A DNA stretch of 28,649 bases, from positions 1-28,649 of the IMG/VR virus record IMGVR_UViG_3300044675_000336; one strand, 5' to 3'. Origin of the DNA: a virus. Below the pieces are notes generated by a model. The model worked only from the letters and a program-made list of their open reading frames with translations, was not told the origin of the DNA and made no database searches. Position 1 is the stretch's first letter; the number at the start of each line of letters is the position of its first letter. Made by a program: the position numbers and the translations under genes. Of this stretch, positions 11,181-27,615 are shown piece after piece.

Positions 11181-11531
11181 TTATAGCTCCTTGATCTTGG
11201 GCGACTCTAGGCCCGTACCGCGAAGATTGTGCAGACAGCACAGCACCACGTCGTCCGTCATTGCGGTAAAAGCGTGCGACTTACCAGCGGGAATTTTAAC
11301 GATAGCGGGTGCTTTGAACTCGCCCAAAAGCTCGCCGTCTTGCCAAGCTTCAATTGTTCCACGTGAAACAAGCGTTATGTGGTCATGCTCATGGACATGC
11401 TGAGCAATGATAGTCTTAGCTTTTGCGATTGAGTACGCGCGGACCCAGATGTCGTCCACCTCAGTGAACTCAATATAGTCAAGCGGGACTTCCTTGTAAG
11501 CCGGGTTCGTCCTGATAGCTTCAAGCTCCAT
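11181..11531 (-). CDS. Small single-domain cupin, copy 1
   Basis: This 116-aa protein starts at ATG 11531. The cupin metal motif 1 is HVHEHDH, followed by a strand and a Gly turn (SRGTIEAWQDG). Motif 2 is in PAGKSHAF, and the end holds CCLHNLRG. Size and motif order fit a one-domain beta-barrel cupin that could bind a divalent metal through its His cluster. About half of roughly 54 aligned residues match the second cupin at 16301-16660 (DHITL, FKAP, AGK, DD, CLH). Small cupins of this look occur in aquatic phage genomes, but I know of no assigned substrate. This copy sits among virion genes, so it might be a virion accessory. The fold is well supported; the function is unknown. Confidence 0.75.
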   Translation of the reverse strand: MELEAIRTNPAYKEVPLDYIEFTEVDDIWVRAYSIAKAKTIIAQHVHEHDHITLVSRGTIEAWQDGELLGEFKAPAIVKIPAGKSHAFTAMTDDVVLCCLHNLRGTGLESPKIKEL

Positions 11532-16300: not shown

Positions 16301-16660
16301 TTACAACGCCCTAGCCAAACCCGCCGCATGAGCGTTAGATACGCCCGCCGGAATCATGGAAGGGTCAAGGATGTCTTCCTCGCGCTCCCCGGTGCGAAGT
16401 GCATGAAGGCAACTGGCAACCGTGTCGTCTTCAAGGGCTGTCAAAAAATGGCGCTTGCCAGCCATGATATAGATCATATGCGGCGCTTTAAAGACGGTCT
16501 TTTGACCCTCAACATCAACCTCAACGCTACCCTTTGACAGCAGCGTGATGTGGTCGTAGTTATGTTCGTGGCCTTCGTTGCAATCACCCGCCTTGTCAAA
16601 ATGCATCATGCGAACCCAGAGATTCGAGACGCAGGCCATCGTTGTGCGCGGGGCATTCAT
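16301..16660 (-). CDS. Small single-domain cupin, copy 2
   Basis: This 119-aa protein has ATG at 16660, overlapping the oxygenase stop (ATGA). The metal-binding stretch is EGHEHNYDHITLLSKGSVEV, motif 2 is AGKRHFLTAL, and CLHALRTG closes the barrel. An N-terminal NLWVRMMHFDKAG leads into the first strand. It is clearly related to copy 1 at 11181-11531. The type recurs in cyanophage-like and other aquatic phage genomes with no assigned reaction. Coupling to a 2OG-Fe(II) oxygenase-like gene hints at a shared metal-dependent modification step, for example on a virion or host-surface component. That link is an inference from gene order. Confidence 0.78.
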   Translation of the reverse strand: MNAPRTTMACVSNLWVRMMHFDKAGDCNEGHEHNYDHITLLSKGSVEVDVEGQKTVFKAPHMIYIMAGKRHFLTALEDDTVASCLHALRTGEREEDILDPSMIPAGVSNAHAAGLARAL

Positions 16661-22651: not shown

Positions 22652-23077
22652 TTATACAAGCCGAATTAAAGCAGACGTGCTGGTGTTAGCGGGCATCTGC
22701 ACAGTGAAAGAAGTGGTTGAAGTTTTGTCCGAGCCAAAGTCCAGCACGCACACGGCACCGTTGGCCCCCGGCGTATAGATCAACGCGCCACGCGCCGTAA
22801 TTGCGCCAGTCCATGCGGGGGCGGAGAAGTTGATATACGTGGTACTGCCACCAGAATTGTTGGCTTCTGAGCCAATTGTCGCTGTAACAATCTGCCCACC
22901 TGCAACATAGTTACCGCCCGTTGCCTCACCCGTCACAGTGTACGCAGTGGTAGTCTGATCCAGACTAGCGGCGTTGGTGTACAGCGCCAGATAGAACGTG
23001 TCAGAGGCGAAGTTGATCGTCCCGTTGGCAAGGCCCGAGCGCAACGTATTGCAGGAGAAGTTGCCGGTAAATGCCAT
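22652..23077 (-). CDS. Beta-sandwich virion protein (141 aa)
   Basis: ATG at 23077 shares a base with the stop of the 231-aa gene (TAATG). The sequence is almost wholly beta strand: FYLALYTNAASLDQTTTAYT, then NYVAGGQIVTATIG, AWTGAITARGALIY and a C-terminal FTVQMPANTST. This pattern, with the ITARGALIY block, recurs in small structural proteins of aquatic phages. Linkage to the candidate adaptor upstream and the fibre set downstream suggests a tail or adaptor-ring component. No enzyme motif is seen. Confidence 0.62.
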   Translation of the reverse strand: MAFTGNFSCNTLRSGLANGTINFASDTFYLALYTNAASLDQTTTAYTVTGEATGGNYVAGGQIVTATIGSEANNSGGSTTYINFSAPAWTGAITARGALIYTPGANGAVCVLDFGSDKTSTTSFTVQMPANTSTSALIRLV

Positions 23078-23772
23078 TACCGAACCCCGCTATTCTGCGG
23101 CAGCGGCGCAAGACGGAACTGCCCACTACGGTACGCATCGCTGCGCTCCAGACCATCGCCCAGACGTTGTGCCAGCGCAAGAGCTTCTTTGTATTTCATT
23201 TCGTAAAGAGTGAGCATGTCAGTCTCGCCCTTCATGAATGTATACGCCTCAACCAGAGAGCCATACAGCAGTACTGTGTCGAAGTTATCACCCAGCCAAG
23301 TCCGGCCATCCGCAGCCACCGAAATGGACTCGGGGTAGTAGTAATAGTGAAGCTCGACGTTGTAGGCAGCGTCAGGCGTCGGCCCCAGCAAGAACGACAA
23401 CTCGTCAGTAATATTTGCGCCAACCACCGTCGGGCCAAATAGCGCGTAATACTTGGGAATGCCTGTGTCCGTGGTCGGGTTGGGGTACGCCTGCCGGATG
23501 AAGTTCACATCCTTGTTGAGCAGGTACTCGTAATTCCCAGAGGCATCAATGACGGCCATCGAGTACACCGACAGGAAGTCAGTGGGGCAAGACAGATACT
23601 TGTTAGCTGACGAAACCGACCCTATCACGTTCTTGCGAATCGACGGAAACTGCACCGTGTTATAGATGCGCTGCTCGGCCTGCTCCACGAACACCGGGAT
23701 GTTTGCAACAAAGTCCGTCTCAAAGTTCTGCGTGTAATCGCAGATAGCAGCGGTCAACTCGGTGTAGTTCAT
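23077..23772 (-). CDS. Candidate head-tail adaptor (231 aa)
   Basis: GAGGTTTAG lies before ATG 23772. The N-terminal helices (MNYTELTAAICDYTQN, then FVEQAEQRIYNTVQFPSIRK) lead into a strand region (LSCPTDFLSVYSMAVI, then FGPTVVG) and a helical C-terminus (VLLYGSLVEAYTFMKGETDM, then YEMKYKEALALAQRL). Helix-strand-helix organisation with this YTELxxxIxDYTQN start matches proteins that metagenomic annotations call phage adaptors (SU10-like). That would place it in the ring joining portal and tail. I base this on pattern memory only. The 307-aa protein at 24667-25590 could equally be the main connector. Confidence 0.6.
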   Translation of the reverse strand: MNYTELTAAICDYTQNFETDFVANIPVFVEQAEQRIYNTVQFPSIRKNVIGSVSSANKYLSCPTDFLSVYSMAVIDASGNYEYLLNKDVNFIRQAYPNPTTDTGIPKYYALFGPTVVGANITDELSFLLGPTPDAAYNVELHYYYYPESISVAADGRTWLGDNFDTVLLYGSLVEAYTFMKGETDMLTLYEMKYKEALALAQRLGDGLERSDAYRSGQFRLAPLPQNSGVR

Positions 23773-23779
23773 CTAAACC

Positions 23780-24046
23780 TCAAGCCATCGGGCCGCGAGT
23801 TTTAATGCCCTTGGTCGCAGCACCGTAACCGCGCATGGTCTGTTCGCCATTACGGTTAACGGGAGGACAGTTGCCCTTGCTATAGCCGCCAACAGACATG
23901 TCCAACTCGTCCATGAGCTTAGCACCCGTGACCGTAGGAATTGCGTTGGTCACGTTGACGGTCGAACCGGACATCGTGTGGGGCGTGGCATAAACATCGG
24001 CAGAGCCGACTTCTTTGCCCATCCGTTTGTCGCTAAATTTAGCCAT
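23780..24046 (-). CDS. Small Gly/Lys-rich phage protein with GAATKGIKTRGPMA tail (88 aa)
   Basis: AGAAGGGC lies before ATG 24046. The N-terminus is basic (MAKFSDKRMGKEVGSADVYA), the middle is Thr/Val-rich, and the C-terminus reads MRGYGAATKGIKTRGPMA. That ending recurs in small proteins of uncultured phages. It loosely echoes the GKTRGKMV ending of the three proteins at 26105-27178. No fold or activity is recognised. Its place between connector-type genes suggests a small virion component. Confidence 0.6.
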   Translation of the reverse strand: MAKFSDKRMGKEVGSADVYATPHTMSGSTVNVTNAIPTVTGAKLMDELDMSVGGYSKGNCPPVNRNGEQTMRGYGAATKGIKTRGPMA

Positions 24047-24666: not shown

Positions 24667-25590
24667 TCAATAGAACAACTGCCGAGGGACAAACCGATCA
24701 GGGGCTTTCTCCCGGTCTTCTTGTGATGCCAACAGCCACTGCTGCTCGTACTCGCCCTTGAGCATCGCCACGCGATCCGGCGGGATTTCCATGCGTTTGG
24801 ACGCAACATAGTACGCCAAGCCAGCCACCAAACAGGGGATCAAACGGAAAGGGATGTCCTGAACATTCACGCCGTTGCCCGCGTCTTGCAGGCGGCGCAT
24901 GCGCCAGTACACGAAGATGTACTGGTCGCCCGGAGCATTTGGCGTAGGCCAGACATTGATGCAGGGCAGATTCGCCACCACAATCGCTGCGCCGTTGGAA
25001 TGAGTCGCTGCCGTAGTGTCGTTCTGGCCCCGGAAGCAGTTCAAAAGCTGATTGCCATCGACGTTCTGATAAACGATGGTCTCATTATCGATGTTGATGC
25101 AGCCAGCCGCAGGCAAATCGTAGGCGTTGCTGACGGTGATCGTAGTGTCCGCAGCCGTAATCGCCCCGTTCAACGTCACACTCGTATTGTTGGTCGCGCC
25201 CGTCTGGCGGTTGATCCACACCTGAATCGGACGCCCTTGCGCCAGCTTGTTGGGGATCGTGGAGTACGTCGGCTCGGAGATGCGGCTGATGTTGATGTCA
25301 GTCTGGTTCAAGCCGTTGGCCTGAGTGCGGATGACTTGATCAAGCAGGTCAATAGTGTCAGTGGGGTAAGGATAGATCGCCTGACCCGTGTTCATCACGA
25401 TCTGGCCTTGCTCTACCGTCCACAGATTGATGCCACGGTTTGCCCACTCGATGGTGAGCATGTTCAGCGAACGACGTGCCGTACGGAACTCATAGCCCGT
25501 ACGGATCTCTAGACCCGCACGCTCATACGCCTCCTCCATGATCTCATTGAGATCGAGGTTAAACGACGTGAGTCCAGTAGTTACAGCCAT
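24667..25590 (-). CDS. Candidate connector/tail tubular A-type protein with inserted domain (307 aa)
   Basis: ATG at 25590 shares a base with the upstream stop and has GAGG about 8 bases before it. N-terminal helices (LNEIMEEAYERAGLEIRTGY, then ARRSLNMLTIEWANRG) and C-terminal helices (PCLVAGLAYYVASKRMEIP) surround strands. This is the layout of T7 gp11-type gatekeeper proteins that join the head to the nozzle. Residues 132-206 form a beta module (TLNGA, TTITV, INIDNETIVY, CFRG, H-x2-G-x3-V) inserted between VWINRQ and INVWPTPN. The same module occurs in the 720-aa protein. A structural connector role is likely; the exact assignment is inferred. Confidence 0.65.
   Translation of the reverse strand: MAVTTGLTSFNLDLNEIMEEAYERAGLEIRTGYEFRTARRSLNMLTIEWANRGINLWTVEQGQIVMNTGQAIYPYPTDTIDLLDQVIRTQANGLNQTDINISRISEPTYSTIPNKLAQGRPIQVWINRQTGATNNTSVTLNGAITAADTTITVSNAYDLPAAGCINIDNETIVYQNVDGNQLLNCFRGQNDTTAATHSNGAAIVVANLPCINVWPTPNAPGDQYIFVYWRMRRLQDAGNGVNVQDIPFRLIPCLVAGLAYYVASKRMEIPPDRVAMLKGEYEQQWLLASQEDREKAPDRFVPRQLFY
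24973..25197 (-). repeat. Inserted beta domain, copy in the 307-aa protein
   Basis: Residues 132-206 share ordered elements with 13228-13431: TLNGA, TTITV, G-x-I-x-ID-x-E-x-I-x-Y, C-x-RG and a late His-x2-G. The borders VWINRQ and INVWPTPN read naturally as one continuous strand region if the module is removed, which marks it as an insertion. Confidence 0.7.
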
Positions 25591-25823
25591 TATCGGTGCC
25601 TCGCTGTTTTCGCTGCCACTTTAGGTGGCTGCTTTACGAATTGCTTCCCGGCAGCTTTTCCCGCACGCTTCGCACGCGTTGTTGAAGCGTACTCAGCAGG
25701 GCTGAGGCTTTTGATCGCAGACTCTGGAAGATATCTTTCACCCGTGTCAGAAGAGCGTTTGCCACTTTTAGTCCTCCACTTTTGAGCGGTCCAGTCCTTC
25801 AGAGATTTCTGCGGAGCTTTCAC
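25590..25823 (-). CDS. Small basic conserved phage protein (77 aa)
   Basis: The start is GTG at 25823 with AAGGAC upstream; the previous stop is two bases away. The core reads WTAQKWRTKSGKRSS, then GERYLPESAIKSLSPAEY and TTRAKRAGKAAGKQF, ending in KVAAKTARHR. I recognise this block from cyanophage and other aquatic virus genomes, possibly DUF5872, but have not checked. The charge is strongly positive. A DNA-binding or capsid-internal function is possible. No experimental role is known to me. Confidence 0.7.
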   Translation of the reverse strand: MKAPQKSLKDWTAQKWRTKSGKRSSDTGERYLPESAIKSLSPAEYASTTRAKRAGKAAGKQFVKQPPKVAAKTARHR

Positions 25824-25825
25824 GA

Positions 25826-26101
25826 TCAGTCCTTGTACCCGCCACCCTTGGCCTTGTACTGTTTAGCCAGAAGCTGCGCCTTACGCGCGCTCCACTGTCC
25901 AGCACCGGTGCCTTGTACCGCCCGAGCCTTGATGGACTCGAACAGCGACTTGCGCATACCGGGCTTGGTGTAGTTGCCAGCCGCATTGACCTTACCACCC
26001 TCAGCGTACTGAGTGAAGTCAGTGTCGTCCCGACGCTCTTTACGAGCACCCTTGGGCATCTTGCTGGATCGGATCGCGCCCATCCCACGGCTGGCCATCA
26101 T
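25826..26101 (-). CDS. Small conserved phage protein with VNAAGNYTKP and GQWSARKAQLLAK (91 aa)
   Basis: Two adjacent ATGs (26101 and 26098) follow the previous stop by three bases. The N-terminus is MMASRGMGAIRSSKMPKG. The centre is QYAEGGKVNAAGNYTKPGMR. The C-terminus holds GAGQWSARKAQLLAKQYK and GGGYKD. The last two blocks are highly conserved in uncultured phages as I recall them. It is basic, probably helical at the C-terminus, with no known activity. It carries the YAEGGK form of the recurring hexapeptide. Confidence 0.7.
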   Translation of the reverse strand: MMASRGMGAIRSSKMPKGARKERRDDTDFTQYAEGGKVNAAGNYTKPGMRKSLFESIKARAVQGTGAGQWSARKAQLLAKQYKAKGGGYKD

Positions 26102-26104
26102 GGC

Positions 26105-26521
26105 TTACACCATCTTTCCGCGAGTCTTGCCGCGTTGAGCAATGCCGTCAGCACGAGAAGAAGCGGTGCCGCCAGCCTTCATGCCCCGTGTTTCGCGTTT
26201 AATTTGACTGTCAAGCTCTCGGTCAGCAGCGTCTTCCATAGCGGAAGCAGCTTTATAGTTGCGCACAGAAGAGCGTAATTCTTTAGCGGGAGTCTTAAAG
26301 TCAGCAACAACCGCCCCACCCGGCACAGTAGATATCGCACCAGACTTAGCAAGTTTTCCTGCTGCACGAACTCCTTGTCCAATTGCCGCGTCTTTTTCGT
26401 TTTGTACGTCGCTCTCAAATCCTCTCGGACGAACACTTTCATATTTATTTGGCATGGCTTTGCGCATTTGCTCTTCGTAAATCCGCGTCATTCCACCAGA
26501 ATCAAATTTGCGTTTTTTCAT
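26105..26521 (-). CDS. RADG-tail protein 1 (138 aa)
   Basis: ATG at 26521 begins MKKRKFDSGGMTRIYEEQMR, a basic start. The middle (about 45-110) is helical and charged with an Ala/Gly stretch (GAISTVPGGAVVAD). The C-terminus is MKAGGTASSRADGIAQRGKT followed by RGKMV, the motif shared with the next two genes upstream. DNA of the last 66 bases also resembles theirs. No fold is recognised. The shared tail with unrelated N-termini suggests a common targeting or binding signal. Confidence 0.65.
   Translation of the reverse strand: MKKRKFDSGGMTRIYEEQMRKAMPNKYESVRPRGFESDVQNEKDAAIGQGVRAAGKLAKSGAISTVPGGAVVADFKTPAKELRSSVRNYKAASAMEDAADRELDSQIKRETRGMKAGGTASSRADGIAQRGKTRGKMV
26108..26173 (-). repeat. RADG C-terminal motif, copy 1
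   Basis: Encodes GGTASSRADGIAQRGKT then RGKMV, at the end of the 138-aa protein. It shares the GG, TAS, RADG, GKT and MV positions with copies 2 and 3. Confidence 0.85.
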
Positions 26522-26523
26522 GA

Positions 26524-26739
26524 TCAGACCATCTTCCCACGGGTTTTACCCCGTTGAGCGCAGCCATCAGCACGAGCAGAGGCAGTCATGCCGCCGCTAG
26601 CCATCTTCTTGGGTTTAGAAGCTTTGGGGGCCGGTTTGGCCGAACCGCCGTCGATGTCTTGCGGAGGGGGCGCCCCAGAGTCCGGGTTATACACGCCGTG
26701 CTTGACTGGGGGTTGCGGTTTCTTTTCCAGCATGTCCAT
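26524..26739 (-). CDS. RADG-tail protein 2 (71 aa)
   Basis: AGGAG is placed before ATG 26739. The first 45 residues are Pro/Lys-rich and probably disordered (MDMLEKKPQPPVKHGVYNPD, then APKASKPKKMAS). The rest is the shared tail GGMTASARADGCAQRGKT then RGKMV, with Cys in place of Ile after RADG. The protein is therefore little more than a flexible leader plus the motif, which argues that the motif itself carries the function. Confidence 0.65.
   Translation of the reverse strand: MDMLEKKPQPPVKHGVYNPDSGAPPPQDIDGGSAKPAPKASKPKKMASGGMTASARADGCAQRGKTRGKMV
26527..26595 (-). repeat. RADG C-terminal motif, copy 2
   Basis: Encodes GGMTASARADGCAQRGKT then RGKMV, with one extra residue after GG compared with copies 1 and 3. 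It ends at the stop of the 71-aa gene. Confidence 0.85.
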
Positions 26740-26749
26740 GTTGGACTCC

Positions 26750-27178
26750 TTAGCAGGCTTTGCCGCCGCGCATCATCTTGACCATAGCGCCCTTGGTCTT
26801 GCCTTTAGAAGCAATACCGTCAGCACGGGCAGAAGCGGTGCCGCCCTTGTTCATGAAAATAGGCACTTTTTTGCCGTCTTTCATTTTCATAGGCATGCCG
26901 CCTTTCTTCATGCCCATAGGCATGGCGGGAGCCATCATGGTGTCAGCCATAGGAGTGGGCTTTTTCATCCCATCCTTAGCGGTGCTCATGCCTTTTTTCA
27001 TCACGGGTTTACCCATTTTCGAGACAGCCATACGGCCTCCTTCTTTAAAAGTTTTGCCTTTATCGGCGGTTACAAACTCTTTCCCAACACTCTGCGGCAC
27101 TCCCGCTTTTTTGGCGAACGACGGATTGTTGGCCACCGCCGCCATAAAGTTGTGCTGCTTCTTGCTACTGCTCGGCAT
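26750..27178 (-). CDS. RADG-tail protein 3, Met/Lys-rich (142 aa)
   Basis: I place the start at ATG 27178, just past the previous stop and with AAGGTC upstream. The frame stays open further upstream, but that stretch overlaps a better-supported gene. The N-terminus (MPSSSKKQHNFMAAVANNPS, then AKKAGVPQSVGKEF) is a block I recognise in many aquatic phage genomes. The centre is Met/Lys/Pro-rich, with 20 Met in 142 residues (MGKPVMKKGM, MPMGMKKGGMPMKMK). The shared GGTASARADGIASKGKT motif follows, then a nine-residue extension ending in Cys. Function is unknown. The two ends look like separate modules. Confidence 0.65.
   Translation of the reverse strand: MPSSSKKQHNFMAAVANNPSFAKKAGVPQSVGKEFVTADKGKTFKEGGRMAVSKMGKPVMKKGMSTAKDGMKKPTPMADTMMAPAMPMGMKKGGMPMKMKDGKKVPIFMNKGGTASARADGIASKGKTKGAMVKMMRGGKAC
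26780..26845 (-). repeat. RADG motif, copy 3
   Basis: Encodes GGTASARADGIASKGKT then KGAMV. Unlike copies 1 and 2 it is followed by KMMRGGKAC before the stop. Confidence 0.85.
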
Positions 27179-27179
27179 A

Positions 27180-27368
27180 TCAGACCTTGATGATCCAACC
27201 CTTGCCAACGACAAAGCCGACGGCCAGCAGGCCAACAAAAATAAAAAACTTCTCGACGACAGTCTTGCCGACCTTCTTATAGAACTCCCCAGAGAGTTCT
27301 TCAAGTGCAAGCTTTGCCGCTTCTTTGGCAATCAAACGCTCGCGGTCAGTTAATTGCGTATCAGCCAT
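27180..27368 (-). CDS. Small single-span membrane protein (62 aa)
   Basis: ATG at 27368 is chosen because GGAAG lies about 8 bases upstream and the previous stop is one base away. A GTG six codons earlier would overlap that gene. Residues 1-45 are a charged helix (MADTQLTDRERLIAKEAAK, then LEELSGEFYKKVG). Residues of about 46-60 are hydrophobic (FFIFVGLLAVGFVVG) with a short basic end. It is a tail-anchored membrane peptide; holin-like or envelope-interacting roles are both possible. It is far from the lysis cassette. Confidence 0.6.
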   Translation of the reverse strand: MADTQLTDRERLIAKEAAKLALEELSGEFYKKVGKTVVEKFFIFVGLLAVGFVVGKGWIIKV

Positions 27369-27369
27369 G

Positions 27370-27615
27370 TCAGCACTTCCAAGCACGCAGTGATTTGTTA
27401 ATCCGGGAGTTTGGGTCGTTCGCGGTCTTGGCCGAGGTGAGCTTCTTCTTCATGCCACTCATCCTCGCGCAAAAAGAGTCGCGCCTTGACCCGCCCTCTG
27501 GTTGCGGCGGTTTTAGGTTCATCCCTTGGGCCTTCGCAGAGGCGCGACCCTTGGCGTTCAGACCACCTTTGGGGTTCTTGCCTTCCTTGCGAGTCCATGC
27601 GGGTGACTTAGCCAT
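27370..27615 (-). CDS. Conserved basic phage protein with SFCARMSGM motif (81 aa)
   Basis: ATG at 27615 begins MAKSPAWTRKEGKNPKGGL and overlaps the upstream stop by 8 bases (ATGGCTAA). A TTG seven codons earlier is less likely. The protein continues NAKGRASAKAQGMNLKPP, has SFCARMSGM near its middle and ends SLRAWKC. This set of blocks is strongly conserved across aquatic tailed phages, perhaps DUF6321, unchecked. Two conserved Cys (one in the middle, one terminal) could bind metal or form a bond. Role unknown; basic charge suggests nucleic acid or capsid interior. Confidence 0.72.
   Translation of the reverse strand: MAKSPAWTRKEGKNPKGGLNAKGRASAKAQGMNLKPPQPEGGSRRDSFCARMSGMKKKLTSAKTANDPNSRINKSLRAWKC

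Follow-up and report, generated by a model that had tools for sequence, protein, structure and literature searches.

A candidate targeting tag at the C-termini of unrelated, fast-changing proteins encoded between the capsid and adaptor genes of aquatic podoviruses

A short conserved peptide, the RADG tail, closes a large number of small proteins with otherwise unrelated bodies in a large and widespread group of uncultured aquatic podoviruses, among them relatives of phages of SAR11 and roseobacters. On balance we favour the view, at a probability of roughly 0.55, that this tail is an address at the C-terminus by which a hypervariable set of cargo proteins is targeted to the virion, probably to the head. 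The consensus is roughly 23 residues long, GG-x-[ST]AS-x-R-[AG]-D-G-[CI]-A-x-[RK]-G-K-T-[RK]-G-[KR]-M-V, its core being derived from 119 distinct tails, with part of the positions set by the search expression itself.

The stretch of DNA under analysis (hereafter, the window) is a complete IMG/VR virus record of 28,649 bases, in which the genes lie almost all on the minus strand. In the order of transcription a 171-aa protein, a DUF6321 protein and a small hydrophobic protein are followed by the three tagged genes g3, g2 and g1, then by a phrog_17747 protein, a phrog_14910 protein and the SU10-type adaptor 1, and finally by a zinc-ribbon-like protein, a 56-aa protein, an 88-aa protein and adaptor 2. 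The original prediction, which left the strand unstated, placed the RADG motif at or near the C-terminus of three consecutive genes; all three are on the minus strand, and the motif is exactly terminal in g1 and g2 and ends nine residues short of the stop in g3. The features of the locus are the following.

27370..27615, minus strand: DUF6321 protein, without the tag in the window
27180..27386, minus strand: small protein with one hydrophobic, transmembrane-like segment; its position upstream of the tagged genes is conserved (compare locus L220)
26750..27178, minus strand: g3, 142 aa, tagged; N-terminal module phrog_16759 (residues 1-46, SSSKKQHNFMAAVANNPSFAKK), M/K/G-rich linker, tag
26780..26845, minus strand: RADG tag of g3, GGTASARADGIASKGKTKGAMV, then nine residues, KMMRGGKAC, to the stop
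26524..26739, minus strand: g2, 71 aa, tagged; body P/K-rich and disordered-looking; the same body carries another tag sequence in locus L123
26527..26595, minus strand: RADG tag of g2, GGMTASARADGCAQRGKTRGKMV, exactly C-terminal (sequence and shuffle control)
26105..26521, minus strand: g1, 138 aa, tagged; body mostly helical and hypervariable; missing from the closest relative, L123
26108..26173, minus strand: RADG tag of g1, GGTASSRADGIAQRGKTRGKMV, exactly C-terminal (sequence and shuffle control)
25826..26101, minus strand: phrog_17747 protein (YAEGGKVNAAGNYTKPG...WSARKAQ...), the next gene downstream of the tagged genes
25590..25823, minus strand: phrog_14910 protein, a conserved neighbour
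24667..25590, minus strand: SU10-type head-tail adaptor 1, the conserved flank downstream of the tag locus
23783..23833, minus strand: tag 2 (RGYGAATKGIKTRGPMA) of the 88-aa protein, probably a distant variant of the RADG tail
23077..23772, minus strand: SU10-type adaptor 2, the next gene after the one that carries tag 2

The first 42 residues of g3 (27041-27178, minus strand) share 81% identity with PHIKZ165.1, a phiKZ protein that stands alone, and the same N-terminal module forms the start of proteins annotated as structural in the large phages 121Q and PBECO4. This module is widely travelled, gp51 of 121Q and 32740-32898 of BUCT555 being among its locations. Elsewhere in the window, near the lysis genes, two small cupin-like proteins (11181-11531 and 16301-16660, both minus strand) share the sequence HxxDHITL(V/L)S(R/K)G...AGKxHxxTA.

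A chance origin of the motif finds no encouragement in the controls, since no match occurred in 300,000 residue-shuffled copies of the three window proteins and none to the reversed pattern in 23 whole records. Two scans of IMG/VR and one of the GTDB genomes returned at least hundreds of matching stretches, and the related loci that were fetched, nearly all of them IMG/VR contigs, yielded at least 335 non-redundant tagged proteins of 50-559 aa. The expected C-terminal position is borne out across these sequences, the tag being exactly terminal in 282 of the 335 (the matched motif stops three residues before the stop). The bodies in front of it form 111, 154 or 202 clusters at 30, 50 or 70% coverage, and among 137 bodies compared with Pfam and PHROGs no family recurred in more than two members, the best E-value being 1e-4. 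The claim that one tail sits on differing bodies thus holds for at least about 110 body clusters without a clear Pfam or PHROG assignment, and a single globular family, which would have spoken against it, did not emerge. A transmembrane-like segment is present in just one of the 335 tagged proteins, and the net charge is about +6 for the tail and +3 for the median body. A profile search of the PDB with the tag gave composition-type matches to GG/DG segments, none of them convincing, and the AlphaFold model of g1, built on an alignment of 137 sequences, was left out of the fold comparison because of its pTM of 0.29, with low confidence for the tail. Literature searches on 'RADG motif', DUF6321, Pag-Yong1 and MinM2/Pra-JY27 returned nothing relevant.

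Is it the peptide or the DNA that is conserved? Third codon positions differ at 53-58% of sites among 122 distinct tails, equally within and between contigs, and an invariant peptide with saturated third positions implies that selection acts on the protein. The three window tails are 60-77% identical as DNA, one pair using different codons at 9 of its 17 shared residues, such that the similarity of coding DNA remarked upon in the original prediction is little more than the shared amino acids would impose. Given the divergence at third positions, tails of the window type must be old and not recent duplicates, and a recent DNA-level duplication of the tail was accordingly rejected on the saturation of silent sites. 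Of the proposal that the tail had been duplicated or swapped as a cassette there remains the exchange of bodies, with junctions in or beside the tag. Tags within one contig differ slightly less from one another than shuffled ones (0.200 against 0.230, with none of 500 shuffles as alike), an effect which is consistent with a shared partner, although it is small and perhaps partly due to shared ancestry.

The coding DNA of the tail end shows a further regularity. In 224 of 236 tails no more than 10 nt separate the stop from the next ATG, and the final glycine codon is GGA or GGG in 177 of these 224, whereas GGC and GGT prevail among the other glycines of the tail. The tag thus ends in what resembles the ribosome-binding site of the next gene. 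In the window this resemblance of the last codons, GGA/GGG-AAG-ATG, is found at 26105 and 26524 (minus strand).

Comparison of the window with eight relatives illustrates how rapidly the tagged genes are replaced. Most flanking genes are clearly orthologous, adaptor 1 being 73-96% identical, while in the tagged slots of most relatives the bodies differ and only the last 20-34 residues align. The nearest relative, L123, with adaptors 96 and 100% identical to those of the window, is without g1; the body DNA of its g2 is nearly identical to that of the window g2 and is followed by a different tag, the last 27 nt of which, together with the downstream flank, are those of the window g1. In 38 pairs of loci the downstream DNA is at least 90% identical and the bodies are unrelated, the tags being 81-100% identical in the 25 pairs listed, and the 3' part of the tag is often closer than the 5' part. 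Synteny breakpoints lie inside tags for 14 of the 43 non-redundant pairs, where 2.5 would be expected, and they mark 25 of 111 gene ends with a tag but 5 of 156 without one, a seven-fold difference in frequency. Some of this enrichment is to be expected, since a conserved tag lengthens whatever alignment contains it, and since the gene that first varies on the way upstream from the adaptor mostly has a tag. Read from these alignments, local recombination at the tag is visible between close relatives.

The position of the tag in the genome is narrowly defined. Since sampling on the tag itself was to be avoided, 80 loci were fetched via adaptor 1, 35 of which have at least 3 kb upstream; 34 of these 35 carry one to four tags within about 2.2 kb upstream (29 of 35 with a stricter motif), and in 214 kb of this adaptor-anchored sample no tag lies downstream of adaptor 1. 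Whole records (23, of 38-66 kb) have zero to five copies each, in one cluster and on one strand, and the three records negative for the pattern include MinM2 and Pag-Yong1, whose divergent tag reads GGMIGRDGCAKRGRTKGRFI. Among loci selected by the tag, a gpT-like major capsid protein (MCP) is encoded upstream in 41 of 43, DUF6321 is present in 52 of 54, and adaptors 1 and 2 follow downstream in 87 of 88 and 59 of 59, respectively. Two further expectations, that the motif would occur in multi-copy sets in related genomes and beside head and connector genes, thus find support in one to five copies per genome and in an interval that runs from capsid to adaptor.

The phages concerned can be placed with the help of cultured relatives. 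The MCP of L220, for which no PDB relative was found by sequence, is 57-72% identical to the MCPs of HTVC023P, HTVC027P, CRP-901/902 and MinM2, and the cultured phages with a homologous capsid also include DSL-LC04. Tag-bearing records combine the gpT-like MCP with SU10-type adaptors in the same order as in HTVC023P-like podoviruses; the window is assigned to these by its adaptors, because it stops before its capsid gene. These phages encode a GroES immediately before the scaffold gene; annotation places it upstream of the capsid genes in those cultured relatives that were examined, and it was scored in L220. At the sensitivity used, the only phage records with the tag are MinM2, Pag-Yong1 and Pra-JY27, the carrier being MM2_5 (WEV89192.1), three genes past the capsid gene; searches found no virion proteomics for these three. 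These records (OQ594354.1, OL906435.1 and PP438419.1) are identical in length, 65,014, and list three cyanobacterial hosts; they may represent a single phage, whose host could be a heterotroph present in cultures that were not axenic. The tag is absent from cultured HTVC023P, HTVC027P and CRP-902 despite their homologous capsid, and is therefore dispensable for capsid assembly as such. Cyanophage Pam1, to which an annotation pointed, is a 36-kb phage.

The RADG tag can be grafted onto another protein family. DUF6321 (PF19846) resembles the tag in being a module at the C-terminus of proteins that vary greatly in length (its PHROG profiles span 99 to 928 aa) and are encoded in the same gene interval, but differs from it in being a 72-residue domain of unrelated sequence with an invariant FCAR...W.C, for which the AlphaFold model has a pTM of 0.38 and Foldseek found no match in the PDB. 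While 96 DUF6321 proteins end at the otherwise terminal invariant WxC, 16 run on into the tag by a continuation GG-(Y/T)V-...-ADGCATKGKTKGRFV or GGTVRGGGCEIRGKTKGKMV, as in L086:1374-1727, L099:1618-1941 and L200:4798-5118. DUF6321 also constitutes the C-terminal part of cyanophage T4-GC119, annotated as 'similar to S-SM1 protein', a label that in P-HM1 is borne by gp3, 13-15, 18-21, 23 and GC190 and by no listed replication gene; S-E7 annotates its DUF6321-bearing protein as 'structural protein'. GC190 is among the proteins stated to occur in virions in one account (PMC3037559). By this pattern, which is circumstantial evidence, the cyanophage homologue of DUF6321 is annotated in the manner of virion proteins.

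Variants of the tag form several dialects. Proteins of the g3 type, with the phrog_16759 N-terminus, carry RADG, RDGV, SADG or GGGIE followed by GKT. For one body that is tagged in L129, DSL-LC04 encodes a homologue without the tag, which lies elsewhere in the genome, between portal and GroES. The tail of the 88-aa protein, in which a looser version of the motif had been noticed, is a second conserved tag, KTxGIKxRGxG[AC]ATKGxx[ASC]RGPMA followed by the stop (core RGxG[AC]A[TI]KGxxxRGPMA and stop), which is carried by no fewer than four kinds of small body immediately before adaptor 2. Profile comparison by hhalign places it in register with the RADG tag (P 0.0016, at a probability of only 16%), of which it is probably, to judge by this alignment, a distant variant. 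Tag 2 is present in L004, L007, L123, L220 and about 100 other loci, and is among the most conserved C-termini of the clade. An N-terminal form, M-x-F-K-S-[AG]-[AN]-D-G-x3-[QK]GKTKGKNLG (also M-x-F-K-S-x-A-[DN]-G-x3-x-GKTKGKNLG), is encoded by the gene that precedes in many relatives. In L203, L204, L214, L225, L226, L232, L237 and L239-L241 the gene concerned is small and close to that of the zinc-ribbon-like protein, at a distance of about 1.3-3.4 kb downstream from the adaptor 1 start.

How could such a peptide work? From the low-confidence model we infer an anatomy in which a GG hinge leads into a short helix (SxRADGCAQ) and the peptide closes with a basic end (RGKTRGKMV). The tag would dock unrelated, fast-changing small accessory proteins on one common phage partner, most likely in the head, be it the capsid shell, the scaffold or the portal vertex, and the docked proteins would be built into the virion, probably travelling with the DNA. 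The slot between capsid and adaptor would take in new bodies by recombination, with junctions in or beside the tag-coding DNA. That there should be one address to one partner is suggested by a peptide selected as protein, by interchangeable bodies, by the presence of one to five copies per genome and by the confinement to the capsid-adaptor interval. Three circumstantial arguments favour the head as destination: this location; the graft onto DUF6321, whose T4-GC119 carrier shares its 'similar to S-SM1 protein' label with gp3, gp13-15, gp18-21, gp23 and GC190 and not with the replication genes; and the N-terminal module of g3, which begins proteins annotated as structural in 121Q and PBECO4.

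Turnover and a shared partner would fit equally well with docking outside the virion, for instance on a complex for replication or transcription or on a chaperonin inside the infected cell, and GroES is indeed encoded upstream of the capsid genes; yet with the tag limited to the capsid-adaptor interval, none occurring downstream of the adaptor, and grafted onto a domain whose cyanophage homologue is annotated like virion proteins, such a partner seems unlikely. Unlikely too, and slightly more so, is a nucleic-acid- or phosphate-binding tail that would tether small basic proteins to the genome, be it packaged or replicating. The tail and the median body both carry a positive net charge, many neighbouring small proteins are equally K/R-rich, and DG[CI]AxRGKT, matched by eye, fits the phosphate-loop pattern GxxxxGK[ST]. 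But conservation at the acidic, small and Cys/Ile positions is no less strict than at the basic ones, and nonspecific DNA binding does not call for such strictness; GHT, GRT and GKS variants occur; and the pattern, which lies five residues from the C-terminus in a partly unstructured, low-confidence region of the model, lacks the surrounding hydrophobic strand or helix and any convincing PDB match, such that the tag does not display a Walker A set between strand and helix inside a globular domain, as P-loop NTPases have it.

The closeness of the next ATG (224 of 236), the GGA/GGG at the last glycine (177 of 224) and the junctions in or near tags (14 of 43 against 2.5 expected; ends 25 of 111 against 5 of 156) could in principle mean that the tail is kept mainly at the level of DNA, as a translational-coupling linker and homology patch encoding a functionless peptide. 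We regard this as quite improbable, for upstream of the ribosome-binding segment the amino acids are fixed and the third positions free, and the motif occurs also at the N-terminus of a neighbouring gene and, in other wording, on DUF6321. Least plausible, and in our estimate very improbable, is that the tail serves as a stability or degradation signal or is the relic of one ancient family with diverged bodies. A C-terminal place is typical of protease tags, and a loose cut-off gathers 140 bodies in one single-linkage group; to our knowledge, however, the tag bears no resemblance to an ssrA-type tag, the bodies form 154 clusters at 50% coverage or more, and the DUF6321 graft together with the swaps between near-identical genomes reveals a real modularity, common ancestry failing for DUF6321 and for g2.

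If the preferred reading, a tag for virion cargo, is extended, the several dialects could be wordings of one skeleton, R-x-x-G-x-A-x-[RK]-G-x(2,3)-[RK]-G-x-M-x, which would constitute a general cargo-loading code of aquatic phages, its coding DNA doubling as ribosome-binding site and recombination socket; we consider this generalisation tentative and rather doubtful. Were it true, the code would be previously undescribed and would mark a class of small proteins for head packaging and delivery to the host, and phages could plug in effector or anti-defence genes pre-addressed to the virion. Even as a simple loading signal, the sequence rule would flag hundreds of phage proteins as probable delivered cargo, and the tail could be moved to the C-terminus of other proteins so as to load them into phage particles. 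The internal proteins of T4 counter host restriction enzymes, and the slot would therefore, if the tag is a loading signal, be a natural hunting ground for new anti-defence proteins. DUF6321 with and without the graft offers two matched proteins that differ by the tag alone.

Three known systems invite comparison. In scaffolding proteins of the P22 type a small and basic, coat-binding C-terminal helix-turn-helix docks inside the procapsid. The RADG tag is likewise a small basic C-terminal element, but these phages encode their scaffold separately, ahead of the capsid gene, and the tagged proteins are accessory and multi-copy. In T4 the capsid-targeting sequence (CTS) of the internal proteins is N-terminal and is cut off by the prohead protease. 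The internal proteins of T-even phages are diverse and share only this sequence (PMC3012670). Like the CTS of IPI, IPII and IPIII, the RADG tag is a short terminal segment on diverse small accessory proteins; unlike it, the tag differs in sequence and is C-terminal (exactly so in 282 of 335 proteins). No Peptidase_S78 was found in 11 tag-bearing genomes by a search whose control worked (that for Peptidase_S77 had no positive control). The T4 proteins are packaged in the head and injected; for the RADG proteins packaging is a prediction. In Family 1 encapsulins a short C-terminal peptide guides cargo into an HK97-type shell (PMC8346489). The likeness to the RADG tag again lies in a short C-terminal targeting peptide carried by different proteins, and the difference in the motif and the setting: in place of a cellular operon with known cargo enzymes there is a phage genome with a tailed-phage module of portal, scaffold, MCP and adaptors, in which the bodies are many, unrelated to one another and without a match to any enzyme family. 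By these features of terminus and operon the RADG tag is a member of neither the T4 CTS nor the encapsulin peptides; by analogy, however, we think it somewhat favoured that it works like both, as a short address by which diverse proteins would be loaded.
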